NCBI GenBank assembly: GCA_000171835.1
Contig: ABHC01000006.1
Span: forward strand, 124,001-188,000
DNA length: 64,000 bases
DNA from: an alpha proteobacterium BAL199
Lineage (GTDB): Bacteria; Pseudomonadota; Alphaproteobacteria; Thalassobaculales; Thalassobaculaceae
Reading direction: 5' to 3'
A program made the position numbers and the translations under genes. A model generated the notes under the pieces. That model saw only the letters and a list, made by a program, of their open reading frames with translations. It was not told where the DNA came from and did no database searches. Positions 43,059 through 50,312 of the stretch are shown in pieces; the first letter of the stretch is position 1, and the number at the start of each line of letters is the position of its first letter.

Positions 43059-43736
43059 TTAGTCGACCGGCGCTGCAACGAACCGCAGATGGCCGGTCTT
43101 GATCCAGACAGTGGCGCCGTTGGCTCCCGCCTCGACGGTGGTCGTGCCGTCATCGGGCAACCGCAGCCACGAGAGGCGCCGGAACGTCTCCGCGGCTTGC
43201 ATGAAGCCGCCGTCCAGCACGAACAGTTCGGCACCGCCCGCCCACTCGACCGACACCGTCGTATCAGGCGCCCAGCGTTCGATGCGCACGTCCTCGCGCG
43301 CGTCCTTGAACAGCGGTGTGATCGATACGCCCGCCCGGTTGCCGTCGGGCACGGCGCCGATCCTGTTGGTGTCGATGATCACATGGCTGCGGTCTGCCGG
43401 GTCGAACTGCCACAGCTTGACCAGGATGGTACAGCCGGGTGCCGATCCGGGGGTGTGGCGCGACTGCGGCGGGTTGCGGACGTAGCAGCCGGCCGGGTAG
43501 TCGCCGCGATCATCCTGGAACACGCCTTCCAGGACGATAAACTCCTCGCCGCCGCCATGGACATGCGCGGGGAACTGGCTGTCCGGATCGTAGCGCACAA
43601 TCGAGGTGGCGCGTGCCACCTCGTCGCCGATGCGGTCCAGCATACGCCGGCTGACCCCGGCGGTTGGCGAGCCCCGCCATTCGATCTGATCGGCGTGCAT
43701 CACCACGCGCTGGGTGAAATCGGCGTTGAGTTCCAT
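43059..43736 (-). CDS. Cupin domain protein (ChrR-like cupin)
   Basis: 225 residues from ATG 43736; a GTG eight codons upstream is an alternative. Two cupin motifs are visible in the first half: HVHGGGEEFIVLEGVFQDD and GCYVRNPPQSRHTPGS. These supply three His and one Glu for metal binding. A second cupin-like half follows (GAELFVLDGGFMQAAETF). This resembles anti-sigma ChrR C-terminal cupins without the zinc anti-sigma domain. A stand-alone metal enzyme or sensor is likely. It is convergent with hxlR. Confidence 0.82.
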   Translation of the reverse strand: MELNADFTQRVVMHADQIEWRGSPTAGVSRRMLDRIGDEVARATSIVRYDPDSQFPAHVHGGGEEFIVLEGVFQDDRGDYPAGCYVRNPPQSRHTPGSAPGCTILVKLWQFDPADRSHVIIDTNRIGAVPDGNRAGVSITPLFKDAREDVRIERWAPDTTVSVEWAGGAELFVLDGGFMQAAETFRRLSWLRLPDDGTTTVEAGANGATVWIKTGHLRFVAAPVD

Positions 43737-43835
43737 GGCCTGTCCGTCCGTCAGTAGCACCTGCCCGGAACAGATAGTGGCCTCGGTCGCGAATGCGAGA
43801 CGTCACCGGCCGTCGAAAACGAACTTCGGGCGGGG

Positions 43836-44675
43836 TCAGTTGGTCGGCTTGTGGTCGTCGGAGGTGGCTCGGTCATCGGCGCGTAGCGGCTGCAGCAACA
43901 TCCGGTCGAGCCGGAGTTCGCCGGGATCGCGGAACTGCGGGATGCCGATGGTCATGCCGAGATGCCCGGCCTCGGGCTGGGCGCGATAGGTGGCGAACAG
44001 CCGGTCCCACCACGGCAGATTGAATCCAAAATTGCTATCGGTCTCGCGGCGGACGATCGAGTGATGGACTCGGTGCATGTCGGGCGTGACCAGAACCCAG
44101 CGCAGCACCCGGTCGAGCGACTGCGGCAGGCGCACATTGCTGTGGTTGAACATCGAGGACGCGTTCAGCAGGACCTCGAAGACCAGCACCGCGACGGCCG
44201 GAGCGCCGAGTGCCGCCACGACGCCGAGCTTGATCACCATCGACAGCACGATTTCCACCGGATGGAAGCGGATCCCGGAGGTCACGTCGAGTTCAAGGTC
44301 GGCGTGATGCATGCGGTGCAGGCGCCAGAACATCGGGACCGCGTGAAACAGCCGGTGCTGCAGGTAGATGGCGAGGTCGAGCAGGACCACCGAGGCAAGC
44401 ACGGCCAGCCAATCCGGCGCCGGAACGAGGGCAAGCAGCCCCCAGCCACGCGCTTCGGCCAGCAGGGCCACCCCGACGGCGGCCGTCGGGAACAGCAACC
44501 TGACCAGGATGGTGTCGACCGCCACGACGCCGAGGTTCCCGGGCCACCGGGTCAGCCGTCCGATCTTCTGGTGCCGTCGCGGCGCGGCCAGTTCCCATAG
44601 CGCCATAACAGCAAAAATTCCGGCGAACACGCCAAGGCGAATGGTCGGTTCGTGCGGGAACAGAAGCTCGTTCAT
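43836..44675 (-). CDS. Sterol desaturase / fatty-acid hydroxylase family protein
   Basis: 279 residues with four or five membrane segments. The di-iron histidine clusters are HRLFH, HRMHH (in WRLHRMHHADLEL) and HRVHH (in PDMHRVHHS), the usual fatty acid hydroxylase pattern. Members hydroxylate or desaturate lipids using O2 at the inner membrane. The stop of the upstream HpnK-like gene overlaps its ATG by four bases, so both are coupled and likely act on one lipid substrate. Confidence 0.9.
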   Translation of the reverse strand: MNELLFPHEPTIRLGVFAGIFAVMALWELAAPRRHQKIGRLTRWPGNLGVVAVDTILVRLLFPTAAVGVALLAEARGWGLLALVPAPDWLAVLASVVLLDLAIYLQHRLFHAVPMFWRLHRMHHADLELDVTSGIRFHPVEIVLSMVIKLGVVAALGAPAVAVLVFEVLLNASSMFNHSNVRLPQSLDRVLRWVLVTPDMHRVHHSIVRRETDSNFGFNLPWWDRLFATYRAQPEAGHLGMTIGIPQFRDPGELRLDRMLLQPLRADDRATSDDHKPTN

Positions 44676-45556
44676 GATGGCGTTGCGTGTCCGTCGTTCG
44701 GATGAGGACCTCTGGCCAGTACCATATGGTGTTGGTCCAGCCGCTCGGCGAACCGGTCACTGGCGAGATAGGCAAGCTCCGCTTCACGGGGAGCCAGGAC
44801 CGGGTCGCGCGCCGCCAGCACGTCATCGACTTCGCCAGGGTGGCACATCAGCAACGGCCGGCGTCCGGTATGGGCAAGATAGGCGGCGAAATCTCCGTCC
44901 ACCGCACGGCTCGGCCGGAACGAGGTCACGCCGCTGAACCCGGCGTTGGTGGTGATACCAGCCTTGGCGGTCCTGTATAGCAGCGGCCGTCCGAGATGAG
45001 CGATCACCAGCGCCCGTGCCACATCGCACCGCCGGCGCAATATGGTTGCCGCCGGTTCGAAGCAGGATCGCAGCCACGTCGTTCGCTTGTCCAGGCGTTG
45101 CTCGAACAACGCCAACAGGCTGTTGCGGATGACCGGCAGCAGGTGGACGTGCTGGTGGCCGTCGAGGAACGCCGGGGGGCGGCCCAGTGCGGACTCGAAC
45201 GCGTCGAGTTGGCGGGCAATCTCGTCGGCAATTTCGATCCGATCAAGCTGGCCGAAATGAGCGAGGCGGATCAGCCGACCGAGCGGCGGCAGCCGGCCGC
45301 CGGGCGCCAGCTTCGGCATTGCTCCAAGCGGAGCGTGATCGGTCAATGTCAGGTGCAGGCCGACGTCGATCCGGTCGAGCAGTTCTCCGAGCCTGCCGGC
45401 TTCAGCGTGCCACTCCGGGAACAGGGTCATGCAACTGGTCGCGGACAGGCGCCCGGCGGCGGCCAGCGCGCGGATGCCTCGGCTGACGCCTGGCGCGATG
45501 CCGTAGTCGTCGGCGCACAGGATCACAGGCTTTTGAAGGGGTTGATACGTACTCAT
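44672..45556 (-). CDS. HpnK-like ChbG/YdjC family deacetylase
   Basis: 294 residues. ILCADDYGIAPGVSRGI near residue 12 gives the two metal-binding Asp residues of the ChbG/YdjC fold. VGLHLTLTDHAPLG and DGHQHVHLLPV supply the histidines. The motif set fits the HpnK subgroup found beside hopanoid genes. The family hydrolyses N-acetyl groups of carbohydrates. Here it is coupled with a fatty-acid hydroxylase-like gene and divergent from a lipid-glycosylation-type cassette. No squalene-hopene cyclase gene lies in the window. Confidence 0.82.
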   Translation of the reverse strand: MSTYQPLQKPVILCADDYGIAPGVSRGIRALAAAGRLSATSCMTLFPEWHAEAGRLGELLDRIDVGLHLTLTDHAPLGAMPKLAPGGRLPPLGRLIRLAHFGQLDRIEIADEIARQLDAFESALGRPPAFLDGHQHVHLLPVIRNSLLALFEQRLDKRTTWLRSCFEPAATILRRRCDVARALVIAHLGRPLLYRTAKAGITTNAGFSGVTSFRPSRAVDGDFAAYLAHTGRRPLLMCHPGEVDDVLAARDPVLAPREAELAYLASDRFAERLDQHHMVLARGPHPNDGHATPS

Positions 45557-45634
45557 CCACCTTGCGCGGGAACACAGGACGCGGGATAGGTGTCGCTCGG
45601 GGCGACGTCGCGGACCATTGTATCCGCGAACTGG

Positions 45635-46660
45635 ATGGACACGGTACCTGAGATCATGACCGGGAATGACGGGACGCTCGGGCCTGATCGGGCTGGAATC
45701 TCGATCGTGGTGCCCGCGTACAACGAAGCGGACAACTTCGATCCCCTTCTGGCGCGGTTGACGGCGGTGCTCGAGCGGATCGGCCTGCCGTTCGAGATCC
45801 TGATCGTCGACGACCGCAGCACCGACGCGACGTTTGAACGGCTGTCAGCGCTGAACGCCCGGGATCCGCGGATCAAGGCGCTGCGATTCAGCCGGAATTT
45901 CGGCAAGGAGATCGCGCTGGCGGCCGGGCTGCGCCACGCCAGGGGCACCGCAGTGGTGTTGATGGACGCCGACCTGCAGCACCCGCCTGAGCTGATCGAG
46001 ACCTTCGTTGCCGAGTGGCGGCAGGGTGCGCAGATCGTTTACGGCCAGCGTGACCGATCGGGCGAGCTTCCGGGCGTTCGGCGCTGGCTGACCCGCCGAT
46101 TCTACCGGTTTTTCGATGCGGTCGGCGAAGTCAAACTGATGCGCCACGGCGGCGATTTCGCGCTGTTCGACCAGCAGGTGGTGCGGGCGTTGAACGCGCT
46201 GCCCGAGCGCGGGCGGTTCGGCAAGGGGCTGTACGCCTGGGTCGGCTTCCGGCGGGTTGCCGTGCCGTTCACACCGGAAGCCCGGCACGCCGGACACTCT
46301 CGATGGTCGTTCTGGCGGCTGTGGATGCTGGCCTTGGATGCCGTCACCGCTTTCAGCGTCATGCCGTTGCGGGTCTGGTCGTACATTGGCGTATTCGTGT
46401 CGTTGCTTGCCATGCTCTACGGCACCTTCATCGCGATCCGCACGCTGATCGAAGGTGTCGACGTCCCCGGCTATGCATCGCTGATGGTGGCCGTCGCGTT
46501 CTTCGGTGGTGTCCAACTAATCACCCTCGGCGTGCTGGGCGAGTACGTCGGCCGGGTTTTCACCGAGGTCAAGCGGCGCCCTCTGTACATAGTCGACCAG
46601 TCGATCGGGCTCGACGAGGTTCTGGAGATCGGCGTCGCCCAGGATCCGGCACGGCGATGA
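45635..46660 (+). CDS. Family 2 glycosyltransferase, GtrB/ArnC/DPM1-like
   Basis: 341 residues from ATG 45635; GTG 45590 and ATG 45656 are alternatives and the ribosome sites do not decide. The GT-A domain has SIVVPAYNEADNF, the metal-binding DDRSTD and DADLQHPPEL, then RHGGDFALFD. The C-terminal half carries two membrane helices (about 255-280 and 290-310). It should transfer a sugar from a nucleotide donor to undecaprenyl phosphate. Its stop overlaps the next start (ATGA). Confidence 0.9.
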   Translation: MDTVPEIMTGNDGTLGPDRAGISIVVPAYNEADNFDPLLARLTAVLERIGLPFEILIVDDRSTDATFERLSALNARDPRIKALRFSRNFGKEIALAAGLRHARGTAVVLMDADLQHPPELIETFVAEWRQGAQIVYGQRDRSGELPGVRRWLTRRFYRFFDAVGEVKLMRHGGDFALFDQQVVRALNALPERGRFGKGLYAWVGFRRVAVPFTPEARHAGHSRWSFWRLWMLALDAVTAFSVMPLRVWSYIGVFVSLLAMLYGTFIAIRTLIEGVDVPGYASLMVAVAFFGGVQLITLGVLGEYVGRVFTEVKRRPLYIVDQSIGLDEVLEIGVAQDPARR

Positions 46661-48990
46661 TTCTGGCGGACCGGCCATGGTTTCGGGAGGCACTGATCGC
46701 CCTCGCGGTGGTTGTGGCGGCCTGGGTCGTGCTGGCCTGGCCCTGGCTGGTCGGCGGGCTGACCATCCCGTGGGATGCCAAGATCCACTTCCTGGCCATG
46801 CTGCGCTGGCTCGCCGAGCACCTCGCGCAGGGCGATTGGCCGCTATGGATGCCCGAGAGCTTCGGCGGCCGTCCGGCCTTGGGCGACCCGCAGTCAATGA
46901 TCCTGTCGCCTGGTTTCATGTTGCTGGCTGCGCTCGACCCCGAGCCCTCGGCACGGGCCGGTGACGCCGTGGTGCTGATCGAATTGCTGATCGGTGGTCT
47001 GGCGACCTCCTTGTTCGGGTTGCAACGCGGCTGGCACCCGGCGGCGGCGGTGCTGGCGGGGCTCGTGATGATGGTCGGAGCGTCAGCCTCGGCCCGCTTG
47101 CAGCATACGCTGTTGGTGCAGAGCCATGCCTTTATTCCCGTCGTCCTGCTGGCGCTCGATGCGGCGCTGGACCGACCGACAATCCGTCGGGCTTTGCTGG
47201 CGGGGCTGGCCGTCGGAATGCTGGTCATCGGCCGCGACCAGGTGGCCTTCCTGGGCCTGATCGCGTTGTTCGCTTTCGTTGTCGCGCGCGTCGCTTCGGC
47301 CCCTGACCCGGCCGGCTTCGTGAAGGAGCGGCTGCTGGTTGTCCTTTTGGCGGTGTCAGTGGCGGTGCTGCTGGCGATTGTGCCGGTACTCGCCACGATC
47401 GAGTTTGCGGAGATCAGCAACCGCCCGTCCTTCGCCTTCGCGTTTGGCGCCAAGCAGTCGATCCCGCCGGAAAGTTTTCTGACGGCCGTCATCCCCAACC
47501 TGTTCGGCGGGGTGTCGGCGCACACCACCTATTGGGGCCCCGGCAGCACACTGTGGTCGCCGCAGTTGCCGGTCGATCGCACGATCATCCAGTTGTACGT
47601 GGGGATGATCCCGATCGTCCTGGTCGTATGGATTGGTTTGTTGCGTGGGCGTTTGTTGAAAGGTGAGGGCCGGTTGTTGCTGGCGCTCACGGCGTTCTTC
47701 GCGATCTACGCGTTGGGTCACTACACACCTGTATTCGAAGTGCTGTTCGACCATGTGCCGGGTGTCGACAAGTTTCGACGTCCGGCGGACGCGACGTTTC
47801 TGTTCGGCGCATCCCTGGCGCTGACGGCCGGCTGGCTGTGCGACCGCGTGCTGCGCGAGGGCCTTCCGGCAGTGGCGACGTGGCGACGAGGCCTGGAAGC
47901 GGCTGTCGCGACTGTGCTGTTGGGGATCGGAGCGGCCGTGGCGTACAGCCAGGGCCAATTGACCCAGACATTGCCGGTTCTCGCTGTAACGACGGTGATG
48001 GTCATGGTCGCGGTCGTGGCTGTCGTTTGGGCTGTCCAGTCAAACACTGGCGCCGATCCGGCACGCCATAAGGCGGCGATAGCGGTTCTGGTCCTCCTGA
48101 CCGTAATCGATCTGCGGGTCTTCACGGTCGGCACGCCGCTCAACGCCATGTCGATCAAGCCGTTCACGGTTCTGGACGACCCTGAGGACGTGCCTCTCGC
48201 TGCCTGGCTGGAACGCGAAGTGGCTGAGATCGAGCTGTACGAGGGACCAGTGCGGGTCGAGGTCCTGGGCCTGGGCGGCGCCTGGCAGAACCTGCCGATG
48301 TCGATCGGCGTCGAGGACACGCTTGGCTACAATCCGCTGCGGCTAGCGGAGTACGACAAGGCCGTCGGGTCCGACCAGAACTCGCATACCGTCGATCGAC
48401 GGTTCGGGACATTGATGACCGGCTACCGCTCCGATTTCGCGGACCTGCTTGGTGTGCGTATCATTATCCTTGGCGGACCGATGGAAGAGATCGATCCGGC
48501 GAGCGCGCCGGCCTTCGGGCCAGCCTTGCGGTTCCGAGGGAGTTGGGTCTACGAGAACCCGCGGACAGTGCCGCGGGTCCTGTTCATCGGCCGCGAGGGT
48601 GCACGGCGTTACGATCCTGATACGCTGATCGAACAAGGCAGCTTGCCGCGCCTGGATTGGCGTCGTGAAGCGCTGATCGATCCGCTGCCGGAGCCGCCGA
48701 TTCAGCCGGCTCAAATTCGTGGACGCGCTGGATTTGTCAGGATGCTCGAGCGGACCAGCGACATGGTCGATCTTGAGGTGTCGGCCCAACGGCCCGGCTT
48801 CGTGGTCCTGCACGACATCGCCTATCCCGGGTGGGTGGCCTATGTCGACGGTGAGCGGCAGGAGCCGAGGCGTGCCAACGCCTTGTTCATGGCAGCGTCG
48901 GTGCCAACGGGAAAGCACAGCGTTCGGTTTGTCTACGAGCCGTTGTCAGTGGAGCATATTTGGGCGCTGCTGGTCGGGGACGATCGGTGA
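46657..48990 (+). CDS. Large polytopic membrane protein, YfhO/GT-C-like
   Basis: 777 residues from ATG 46657, overlapping the GT2 stop by four bases. About 12 membrane segments span residues 10-500 (LIALAVVVAAWVVLAWPWL is the first). The C-terminal 250 residues are soluble and beta-rich (FRGSWVYENPRTVPRVLFIG, FVVLHDIAYPGWVAYVDGE). DAKIHFLAMLRWLAEHL near residue 42 resembles the acidic first extracytoplasmic loop of GT-C glycosyltransferases, and the C-terminal motif matches YfhO-type proteins. It probably transfers sugar from a lipid carrier outside the membrane. Acceptor unknown. Confidence 0.75.
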   Translation: MILADRPWFREALIALAVVVAAWVVLAWPWLVGGLTIPWDAKIHFLAMLRWLAEHLAQGDWPLWMPESFGGRPALGDPQSMILSPGFMLLAALDPEPSARAGDAVVLIELLIGGLATSLFGLQRGWHPAAAVLAGLVMMVGASASARLQHTLLVQSHAFIPVVLLALDAALDRPTIRRALLAGLAVGMLVIGRDQVAFLGLIALFAFVVARVASAPDPAGFVKERLLVVLLAVSVAVLLAIVPVLATIEFAEISNRPSFAFAFGAKQSIPPESFLTAVIPNLFGGVSAHTTYWGPGSTLWSPQLPVDRTIIQLYVGMIPIVLVVWIGLLRGRLLKGEGRLLLALTAFFAIYALGHYTPVFEVLFDHVPGVDKFRRPADATFLFGASLALTAGWLCDRVLREGLPAVATWRRGLEAAVATVLLGIGAAVAYSQGQLTQTLPVLAVTTVMVMVAVVAVVWAVQSNTGADPARHKAAIAVLVLLTVIDLRVFTVGTPLNAMSIKPFTVLDDPEDVPLAAWLEREVAEIELYEGPVRVEVLGLGGAWQNLPMSIGVEDTLGYNPLRLAEYDKAVGSDQNSHTVDRRFGTLMTGYRSDFADLLGVRIIILGGPMEEIDPASAPAFGPALRFRGSWVYENPRTVPRVLFIGREGARRYDPDTLIEQGSLPRLDWRREALIDPLPEPPIQPAQIRGRAGFVRMLERTSDMVDLEVSAQRPGFVVLHDIAYPGWVAYVDGERQEPRRANALFMAASVPTGKHSVRFVYEPLSVEHIWALLVGDDR

Positions 48991-49379
48991 CCGGCGAAGC
49001 CGGCGCGTTGTTCCGCCAGTTCGTGGGCTTCGCGACCGTCGGGATGGTCGGACTGGTAGCGCACTACTCCGCGTTGACCGGGCTGGTCGAACTCGGCGGC
49101 GTCGATCCGGTTGTGGCGTCGGTGATCGGTTTCCTGGCCGGCGCACTCGTGAACTATGTCCTGAACCGGCGGCTGGTGTTCCGGTCCGATCGCGCCCACC
49201 GGGCAGCCGGTCCCAGGTTCTTTGCCGTCGCGGCGAGTGGGCTGGTCCTGAACGGTCTGCTGATGACGTTACTGGTCGACCATCTTGGTGTGTTCTATCT
49301 GGTCGCCCAGGTCATGGTGACCGGCGGTCTGGTCTTCTGGCACTTCCTGCTGAACAAGTTCTGGACGTTCCGGCGATAG
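48987..49379 (+). CDS. GtrA family membrane protein
   Basis: 130 residues from GTG 48987, overlapping the upstream stop by four bases (GTGA). Four membrane helices: FVGFATVGMVGLVAHYS, VVASVIGFLAGALVNYVLN, FFAVAASGLVLNGLLMTLL and VFYLVAQVMVTGGLVFWHF. GFLAGALVNYVLNRRLVF is the GtrA signature. The family is proposed to flip or hand over polyprenyl-phosphate sugars. An earlier TTG at 48960 is less likely. The last 111 bases overlap the convergent methyltransferase gene. Confidence 0.9.
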   Translation: MTGEAGALFRQFVGFATVGMVGLVAHYSALTGLVELGGVDPVVASVIGFLAGALVNYVLNRRLVFRSDRAHRAAGPRFFAVAASGLVLNGLLMTLLVDHLGVFYLVAQVMVTGGLVFWHFLLNKFWTFRR

Positions 49380-50312
49380 TGCGTGCAGACGGTCTCCGGC
49401 CCGCACTCGCTCAAACACCATTACATGAGCTTCAATCGCGTCCGGTCCGTCCCGACGTAGGACGGTTCGCTTGTGGCACCGCTGGACGAGCCCGTGTTCG
49501 CCTGCGACGCGTGTCAGATAGTCCGCGGAGTGCGCGAACCGGCGCGACGGGCGCAACCTTCGGTCCAAACCAGTTGCGTCGGTTTCAACCGCTTCGGCCG
49601 TCATGGCAAACAATCCACCGTCGACCAGCCGCCGCGTCACCGCCGCGAACAACGGGGCCAAATCGCCCAGATAGATCAGCACGTCGGCGGCCGTGACCAA
49701 GTCGAAGTGGCGGGTATCGTTCGCCAGATAGGCAGTCAGTTCGCTGACATGGAGCGCGTCGTACACTCCCTTGCTGCTCGATTGAGCGATCATTGCCGGC
49801 GACAGGTCGACACCTTCGATCCAGGCGCAGACCTTGCGCAGGCGTTCACCCATCAGGCCGGTGCCGCAGCCGAGGTCGAGGACCGAACCGAAGACCGTAT
49901 CCGAACCGCTCACCGAGTTGATGGCCTGTAGCAGTTGCGCCGGTCCTTGATAGTCCAGACCGATCAGCAAGGAGCGCTCGAACCTCGGCGCGTACTCGTC
50001 GAACAAGGCGGCGACATATGCCGGTGGCAGACCGTCGGGCTGCGGCGTAGCGCCGAGCAGGGCGAGGTGGGGCAGGGCACCCAGCCGGTCGTCGGGGCTG
50101 AGTGCAAGGTAGCGTGCGTAGGCCGCGACCGCACGGTCGCGGTGACTCGATGTTGCCGCGGCTTCACCGATTAGGAAATGCAACTCCGGCCAGTCGGGGG
50201 TCAACTCAAGCGTCTGCTCCAGCACCGACAGCGCAGCGGTCGGATCTCCGCTGTCCAGGAGTGCACGCGCCGTCTCGACCCGCCGGTCGGCTCTCAAATC
50301 TCCGGATGTCAT
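49269..50312 (-). CDS. TPR-containing SAM-dependent methyltransferase
   Basis: 347 residues. Two or three TPR-like helices fill the first 80 residues (AALSVLEQTLELTPDWPELHF). They are followed by a class I methyltransferase with VLDLGCGTGLMGERL (motif I) and HFDLVTAADVLIYLGDL (motif IV). The domain ends near HVMVFERV. The remaining 40-odd residues are low in hydrophobic content and largely antisense to gtrA, so the stop appears to have been lost or displaced. Homologues are predicted to methylate small molecules or proteins; the target is unknown. Confidence 0.85.
   Translation of the reverse strand: MTSGDLRADRRVETARALLDSGDPTAALSVLEQTLELTPDWPELHFLIGEAAATSSHRDRAVAAYARYLALSPDDRLGALPHLALLGATPQPDGLPPAYVAALFDEYAPRFERSLLIGLDYQGPAQLLQAINSVSGSDTVFGSVLDLGCGTGLMGERLRKVCAWIEGVDLSPAMIAQSSSKGVYDALHVSELTAYLANDTRHFDLVTAADVLIYLGDLAPLFAAVTRRLVDGGLFAMTAEAVETDATGLDRRLRPSRRFAHSADYLTRVAGEHGLVQRCHKRTVLRRDGPDAIEAHVMVFERVRAGDRLHALSPERPELVQQEVPEDQTAGHHDLGDQIEHTKMVDQ

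Follow-up and report, generated by a model that had tools for sequence, protein, structure and literature searches.

Gene organization of the locus

The window analyzed here is a 64,000-nucleotide stretch of contig ABHC01000006.1, and all coordinates are positions within that stretch. It carries a cassette of three overlapping genes, which encode a family 2 glycosyltransferase (GT2), a large YfhO-type membrane protein, and a small GtrA-family membrane protein, and a ydjC gene lies divergent to them. We consider it reasonably probable that the four products make up a four-component system for the extracytoplasmic transfer of an amino sugar. The features of the locus are as follows.

45635-46660, plus strand: GtrB/CsbB-type GT2 of 341 amino acids (PF00535), a predicted polyisoprenyl-phosphate N-acetylhexosamine (HexNAc) synthase.
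46657-48990, plus strand: YfhO-type GT-C glycosyltransferase of 777 amino acids (PF09586), with an N-terminal polytopic GT-C module and a C-terminal beta-sandwich that is presumably periplasmic.
48987-49379, plus strand: GtrA-family small membrane protein of 130 amino acids with a GTG start (PF04138), a predicted flippase for the carrier-linked sugar.
44672-45556, minus strand: YdjC-family deacetylase of the GT2-linked clade (PF04794), a predicted carrier-linked HexNAc deacetylase with a NaxD-like role.
45557-45634: 78-bp spacer separating the start of ydjC from that of the divergent GT2 gene, which, judging by the sequence layout, presumably holds both promoters.
43836-44675, minus strand: fatty-acid hydroxylase superfamily gene (PF04116), probably a neighbor rather than a conserved part.

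The open reading frames (ORFs) and the sequence bear out the start-to-stop overlaps reported in the initial annotation of this DNA: the GT2 gene and yfhO share the 4 bases ATGA at 46657-46660, and yfhO and gtrA share the 4 bases GTGA at 48987-48990. The three-gene cassette and its layout are thus confirmed. An alternative GTG start for the GT2 at 45590, upstream of the one listed, would give a protein of 356 amino acids. No sigma-70 consensus site was found in 43500-49700. The GC content is 0.644 to 0.652 for the three cassette genes (0.644 to 0.663 with ydjC included) and 0.652 for the window.

The carrier-loading enzyme and the GtrA protein

The GT2 is the carrier-loading enzyme, in agreement with its initial annotation as a GtrB-like loader. 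It matches PF00535 with an expectation value (E) of 2.7e-33, and its best solved relative is the Synechocystis GtrB sll0501 (340 bits, 306 residues), in an alignment that extends through the C-terminal membrane part of GtrB; three ArnC-type chains score 141 to 151 bits. The residues D94, D96, D157, and R200, which are named as active-site residues in the GtrB structure paper (PMC4728340), align with D111, D113, D174, and R217 of the GT2 when the numbering is anchored on the DXD motif. The position of GtrB R122 is shifted by one residue in the alignment and falls on Q138, beside R139. The window's own genome contains a single GT2 close to that of the cassette (759 bits; the next scores 71). The sugar loaded by this enzyme would be HexNAc.

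The GtrA protein matches PF04138 (E = 1.7e-27; 96 bits versus a cutoff of 26.1), which supports the flippase-type role that it had been given, as a prediction. A search for a solved relative returned none that was convincing (one match, E = 0.68). A second GtrA-family protein (52.6 bits) is encoded in the same genome outside the window, at G000:C64:54207-54569 (locus L002).

The large YfhO-type protein

The only Pfam match of the 777-amino-acid protein is PF09586 (YfhO; E = 1.6e-7, 30.6 bits versus a cutoff of 28.5), which covers only 41 C-terminal residues, and neither PF13231 nor PF02366 was matched at E <= 0.001. A PDB sequence search with the protein gave no match. The AlphaFold2 model, which has a mean predicted local distance difference test score (pLDDT) of 69.6 and a predicted TM-score (pTM) of 0.75, was compared with solved structures using Foldseek and VIA-align. 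The top Foldseek match is ArnT (5f15; E = 1.3e-5, TM-score of 0.36 by query and 0.48 by target, root-mean-square deviation [rmsd] of 11.9), and, judged by their titles, all seven matches with E <= 0.001 are either GT-C enzymes or GT-C-holding complexes. In VIA-align, the Z scores are 21.4 for yeast oligosaccharyltransferase (OST), 20.1 for PglB, 19.7 for AftD, and 17.6 for ArnT, with an rmsd of 5 to 6 and about 10% identity, and they range from 16 to 21 over OST, PglB, ArnT, AftA, and AftD. The top 47 rows are, again by title, GT-C-fold enzymes, GT-C-holding complexes, or glycosylphosphatidylinositol (GPI) transamidase, and the next row has a Z of 6.8; Z scores below 8 may reflect only a common arrangement, and families absent from these tables are not excluded by them. 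The protein is therefore predicted to be a GT-C glycosyltransferase. The search against GT-C folds that the initial annotation had named as its own test was thus positive with both programs, and the PF09586 and fold matches together support the earlier description of the transferase as YfhO/GT-C-like rather than a known GtrC.

We aligned the window protein with 3 Hyphomicrobiales/Neomegalonema rows and 11 Firmicutes rows, including Bacillus YfhO. Its identity to the Firmicutes rows is only 13 to 16%. However, six residues (D40, G71, R374, R533, N545, and G732) are invariant in all 15 rows. In the model, D40 lies directly after the first helix (residues 9 to 31) and ahead of the helix formed by residues 42 to 57, and we take this to be the position at which GT-C enzymes keep their catalytic Asp.

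The C-terminal domain was also folded alone from four rows, at a pLDDT of 67.7, with residues 1 to 51 of the piece poorly modeled. It aligns with AftD over 178 residues (Z = 9.8; rmsd of 5.9), and its next matches are glycoside hydrolase beta-sandwiches with Z scores of 5 to 7, too low to mean much alone. The AftD match is consistent with the remark in a review that AftD, and perhaps staphylococcal YfhO, has carbohydrate-binding domains (PMC8035078).

The YdjC protein

The divergent gene had been described as HpnK-like. It does encode a YdjC-family protein (PF04794; 171 bits), but the score on the HpnK model TIGR03473 is 60 to 61 bits versus a cutoff of 232.6, and that on the model for chitin disaccharide deacetylase is 95 bits versus a cutoff of 227. 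It is nevertheless the single match to the HpnK model in its own genome. Among ten other YdjC proteins that we scored on the HpnK model, four from the same class that are not linked to GT2 reach 335 to 403 bits, whereas four GT2-linked members and one unlinked member of the window's YdjC clade reach 42 to 63 bits; the tenth, L178, is in neither group and scores 68.5 bits.

The same division is found in a 69-row YdjC tree, where 52 rows, 48 of them GT2-linked, lie on one side of a branch with support of 100/98. On the other side are a 13-row HpnK clade, which contains no GT2-linked row and of which 4 rows were scored on the HpnK model, and four stray rows. Rows from the window's class group with named Methylobacterium and Bosea rows, and we take the class to be Alphaproteobacteria on that basis. 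Altogether, 48 of the 50 GT2-linked rows fall in a single clade. This clade has the motif D-G-H-Q-H (Q in 92%), whereas the 13 HpnK-clade rows mostly have N-A-H-K-H. HpnK identity was rejected on the basis of the shortfall of about 170 bits, the separate clade, and the different motif.

The active-site residues of ChbG are given as D10, D11, H61, H125, and H206 (PMC9402603). The first four align with D16, D17, H68, and H134 of the window's YdjC, and H206 aligns with H239 in a weak second aligned stretch (3.7 bits); all five are kept in 52 of 52 clade members. NaxD, also of the YdjC superfamily, is a deacetylase reported to act on undecaprenyl-phosphate-linked N-acetylgalactosamine (GalNAc) (PMC11279074, PMC12330716, and PMC10927774). 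The ydjC gene probably contributes a working part to the system, namely, a predicted carrier-lipid deacetylase.

Gene neighborhoods

In a draw of 385 genomes of the window's class, with thresholds of E <= 1e-60 for GT2 and E <= 1e-20 for YdjC, GT2 was found in 79 genomes, YdjC in 61, and both in 34. The two genes are at most 1251 bp apart in 18 of these 34, and no pair falls between 1251 bp and 5 kb. Of the 588 named GT2 loci, we examined the best 80, several of them truncated at a contig end, and 26 of these 80 have a YdjC gene no more than 3 kb from GT2: 14 are divergent, 8 are on the same strand, and 4 are convergent. Pairs occur in alpha-, beta-, and gammaproteobacteria, and their gene order varies. 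Intergenic gaps were measured on ORFs from the first possible start, such that small negative gaps mean little.

Near-full-length YfhO proteins were found in 16 genomes, which belong to 8 families; the ydjC/GT2 pair occurs in 5 of these families. The count of 16 leaves out short or weak matches as well as G015, where the match is a YfhO fragment next to GtrA at the end of a contig and YdjC lies close to the edge of a different one. An adjacent divergent ydjC/GT2 pair is present in 12 of the 16 genomes. In the class draw, where near-full-length YfhO occurs in 8 of the 385 genomes, the pair is found in 5 of these 8 versus 13 of the 377 others (Fisher test, 6e-6, uncorrected for kinship).

The expectation of conserved linkage held in part. 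Three of the 15 other YfhO genomes have all of the genes together, and ydjC, GT2, yfhO, and gtrA stand in one cassette in the window's own genome (G000) and in G001, G130, and G452; the latter three, like a Neomegalonema contig (L066), show the gene order GT2-YfhO-GtrA and a divergent YdjC. This recurrence makes the linkage of the cassette genes more than chance. Another eight of the 15 keep the GT2/ydjC pair apart from yfhO, which is on another contig or more than 190 kb away (G348, G165, G223, G559, G759, G578, G582, and G683). Around solitary yfhO genes, an ORF view, with Pfam assignments for five ORFs of L053 only, revealed no clear partner; the ORFs in this view were picked greedily, with some starts misplaced in high-GC DNA.

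Closer to the window, the ydjC-to-gtrA block is present in the sister genome G001 with 73% DNA identity, and it is followed there by the same genes, identically ordered, as in the window. We found no relative of the 777-amino-acid protein in G002, a genome of the same genus that is 88% complete, or in the family members G026, G030, and G034, the last three of which keep two of the downstream genes. Over the family, a relative is present in 2 of 36 genomes, the window's own included, along with the fragment in G015; many of these genomes are incomplete. The presence of YfhO within the family is patchy. A protein search of one contig collection with the 777-amino-acid protein gave 41 pattern stretches and no relative.

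At other loci, the gene beside the ydjC/GT2 pair encodes a GT-C protein of the PMT/PMT_2 family, above the Pfam cutoff in L093, L094, L117, L143, L154, L155, L157, and L160 and just under it in L119 and L151. An ORF tested in this position at L159 matched no Pfam family, and the tree leaves out the YdjC of L160, which is weak. Several of the PMT/PMT_2 loci with a YdjC of the same clade also have GtrA. By analogy, GT2, YdjC, and a PMT/PMT_2 protein form the layout that would be expected for the transfer of glucosamine (GlcN) or galactosamine (GalN) to lipid A.

At other loci, mostly of Hyphomicrobiales, the GtrB-type GT2 shares its strand with a MurJ-like gene (PF03023; nine were tested and scored 316 to 368 bits). 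We counted 22 such ORFs in 139 sources, 20 of them downstream of GT2 (17 within 200 bp and three at 1 to 2 kb) and two, in L065 and L069, about 1.2 kb upstream. The others are at L061 to L064, L067, L068, L070 (8976-10502), L072, L074, L076, L078, L079, L086, and L144 to L150. YdjC is present at 19 of the 22 loci, and none of the 22 is at a locus where the models found GtrA or YfhO. The MurJ-like gene represents either a flippase swapped for GtrA or the chance position of a housekeeping murJ.

Comparison with known systems

The initial annotation had likened the cassette to Gtr-type systems with three roles. The roles of carrier loading, flipping, and transfer stand, but among known systems the nearest is CsbB/GtcA/YfhO of Gram-positive bacteria and not phage gtr. 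CsbB, GtcA, and YfhO together put N-acetylglucosamine (GlcNAc) on teichoic acids in Gram-positive bacteria (PMC8035078 and PMC7389260). As in Bacillus subtilis, Staphylococcus aureus, and Listeria, a GT-A-type GT2 is combined in the window with a GtrA-family flippase and a YfhO-family GT-C enzyme, and Asp40 and the five other invariant residues are common to the window protein and the Firmicutes YfhO rows. The window differs in its paired YdjC deacetylase, and the hydrophobic C-terminal tail of Firmicutes YfhO seems to be missing from its protein, as read from the alignment. LpxC was found in the window's own genome, and lipid A is thus probably made by the host, which makes an acceptor of the teichoic type unlikely.

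The deacetylase links the window to systems that modify lipid A. In Bordetella, lgmA, lgmB, and lgmC are reported to be required for GlcN on lipid A (PMC4993483), and FlmF2 and FlmK have been linked to the galactosamine modification in Francisella (PMC4688374). NaxD/FlmF2/FlmK and LgmABC resemble the window in combining a GT2, a YdjC-type deacetylase, and a GT-C transferase. We take the Lgm and Flm parts other than NaxD to belong to these same families. A YdjC deacetylase with a complete active site, linked to a GT2, is present in the window too. However, the transferase of those systems is of the ArnT/PMT_2 type, whereas that of the window is of the YfhO type, and the window also has GtrA in the same operon.

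In the Arn system, an N-acyl sugar is loaded, deacylated on the carrier, flipped, and transferred by a GT-C enzyme. The logic of ArnC-ArnD-ArnEF-ArnT, by which 4-amino-4-deoxy-L-arabinose (L-Ara4N) is added to lipid A, is thus like that of the window, and ArnT is the best Foldseek match. However, the deacylase ArnD presumably belongs to another family than the window's YdjC, the flippase differs from GtrA, and the window's GT2 is nearer to GtrB than to ArnC (340 versus 151 bits).

The cassette is best filed as a known kind of multicomponent glycosylation in a varied form, with a YfhO-type transferase and a NaxD-like deacetylase in a bacterium with lipopolysaccharide (LPS) genes. Its parts look like a mix of those known separately from Gram-positive and Gram-negative bacteria. 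In the open literature searched, a body that leaves most subscription papers outside, we found no description of YfhO combined with a YdjC deacetylase and no paper bringing together YfhO, alphaproteobacteria, and a glycosyltransferase. The legend of a figure in a paper on Pontiella places yfhO, an undecaprenyl-phosphate GT2, and gtrA among exopolysaccharide cluster genes, indicating that the three genes have been drawn before in a bacterium outside the Firmicutes.

Proposed pathway and its weaknesses

From the gene layout, the families, the GT-C fold, the active-site residues, and the YdjC-GT2 and YfhO associations computed above, we infer the identity of the sugar, the order of the steps, the direction of flipping, the membrane sidedness, and the acceptor as follows. 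The GT2 would load HexNAc from a UDP-sugar onto undecaprenyl phosphate at the cytoplasmic face. YdjC, acting like NaxD, would then deacetylate the sugar while it is bound to the carrier lipid and would leave a positively charged hexosamine, which GtrA may flip. The YfhO-type GT-C enzyme, with Asp40 in its first outer loop, would move the sugar to an acceptor that may be held at its C-terminal periplasmic beta-sandwich. For the acceptor, our best guess is lipid A or some other part of LPS; lipid A is plausible because LpxC is present and related systems use lipid A. A polysaccharide acceptor would fit the C-terminal beta-domain equally well.

Several observations weigh against this pathway. In the class draw, YdjC is missing, at the threshold used, from 45 of the 79 genomes with GT2, and in 16 of the 34 genomes with both, the two genes are distant or on different contigs. 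Only 3 of the 15 other YfhO genomes keep yfhO beside GT2. YdjC is absent from four of the 16 YfhO genomes (G216, G413, G249, and G770), and a close GT2 from three of the four (best matches of 111 to 114 bits), which indicates that the YfhO clade can work without the deacetylase. YdjC is likewise absent from all 11 Firmicutes YfhO loci of the named sample. In the yfhO tree, solo and cassette rows are mixed, and since the cassette rows do not form one clade, the grouping has probably been lost or gained more than once. Two of the 50 GT2-linked YdjC rows (L071, on a long branch, and L162) lie outside the main clade. The structural evidence has its own weaknesses: the AlphaFold2 model is of middling confidence, with residues 254 to 307 poor, and the Foldseek TM-scores are low (0.29 to 0.36 by query at E <= 0.001), with an rmsd of 12 to 18.

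Full-length YfhO relatives at L049, L050, L051, and L059 have no YdjC match, and three of these four also lack a close GtrB-type GT2. The YfhO of these loci must have a different donor or a different function.

More broadly, the ydjC/GT2 pair could be a module of a widespread, as yet undescribed proteobacterial pathway, producing undecaprenyl-phosphate-hexosamine for downstream parts that are interchangeable, namely, a YfhO- or ArnT-type GT-C enzyme and a GtrA or MurJ-homologue flippase, with the window as the all-in-one YfhO version. We put this forward tentatively, with rather less confidence than the pathway itself.

If the four-component pathway is correct, YfhO transferases, known from teichoic acid decoration, would be extended to alphaproteobacterial envelopes, and a group of YdjC proteins that are readily annotated as HpnK or as chitooligosaccharide deacetylase would be tied to carrier-lipid amino-sugar chemistry rather than to hopanoids or chitin. 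Amino sugars on lipid A alter the surface charge and aid polymyxin resistance in the systems studied (PMC11279074), and the same lipid A question would then apply to many environmental bacteria.

Alternative explanations

In the simplest alternative, the cassette would be a plain CsbB/GtcA/YfhO-type system that passes an unmodified N-acetyl sugar or a hexose to an envelope glycan, and ydjC would be a neighbor with another job, for example, on free chito-oligosaccharides. All three parts are present with translational overlap, the Gram-positive systems work without a deacetylase (PMC8035078 and PMC7389260), the YdjC-less YfhO genomes noted above would be accounted for, and the model for chitin disaccharide deacetylase gives the YdjC protein a higher score, although one under its cutoff, than the HpnK model does. 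However, the ydjC/GT2 pairing persists in the 8 genomes that have yfhO elsewhere, it recurs, in more than one arrangement, among alpha-, beta-, and gammaproteobacteria, and nearly all of the GT2-linked YdjC proteins belong to one clade. We regard a plain three-component system as unlikely.

Conversion of O-antigen by a phage-type gtr cassette, with the YfhO-like protein as a serotype-specific transferase that glucosylates the O-antigen, is far less probable. As in gtrABC, homologues of GtrA and GtrB occur together with a polytopic transferase, and the GT2 is closest to a solved GtrB that was studied with UDP-glucose (PMC4728340). The transferase, however, falls in the YfhO family, and the linked deacetylase has no place in such a scheme. 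Phage gtr operons have the order gtrA-gtrB-gtrX, whereas the window has GT2-transferase-GtrA. Furthermore, the GC content of the three genes matches that of the window, and G001 keeps the block from ydjC to gtrA.

Genes adjacent to the cassette

The fatty-acid hydroxylase-like gene that the initial annotation had placed divergent to the cassette, together with the HpnK-like gene, had led to a hopanoid or modified lipid as the suggested acceptor. The gene does match PF04116, and it overlaps ydjC by 4 bases, but its linkage is not conserved. A DNA search showed that its relative in G001 shares a contig with ydjC at a distance of about 7 kb, and no hydroxylase relative was seen beside the cassette at the other loci examined, using a single-sequence model that distant hydroxylases could escape. 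Since linkage elsewhere was not found, the hydroxylase was rejected as a conserved part, and it is probably a bystander. The model for squalene-hopene cyclase (TIGR01507) had no match in the window's own genome, which is listed as 100% complete; none of 14 control genomes scored over the cutoff of this model and two, including B. subtilis, scored below it, which makes it a weaker test than that with the HpnK model. A hopanoid acceptor was rejected on the basis of the missing cyclase match, the low HpnK score, and the separate clade of the YdjC protein. Thus, modification of a hopanoid or hydroxylated membrane lipid, in which YdjC as HpnK and the hydroxylase as an OlsE-like enzyme (83 bits on the OlsE model versus a cutoff of 475) would act on a lipid glycosylated by the cassette, is very improbable: no cyclase was matched, the HpnK cutoff, which four unlinked relatives clear, is missed, the YdjC clade and motif are not those of HpnK, and the hydroxylase does not accompany the cassette elsewhere, such that the hopanoid reading is largely refuted.

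On the other side of the cassette, a minus-strand ORF at 49269-50312 is convergent to gtrA, with a 111-base overlap at the 3' end of that gene; judged by eye, it resembles a tetratricopeptide repeat (TPR)/methyltransferase protein.

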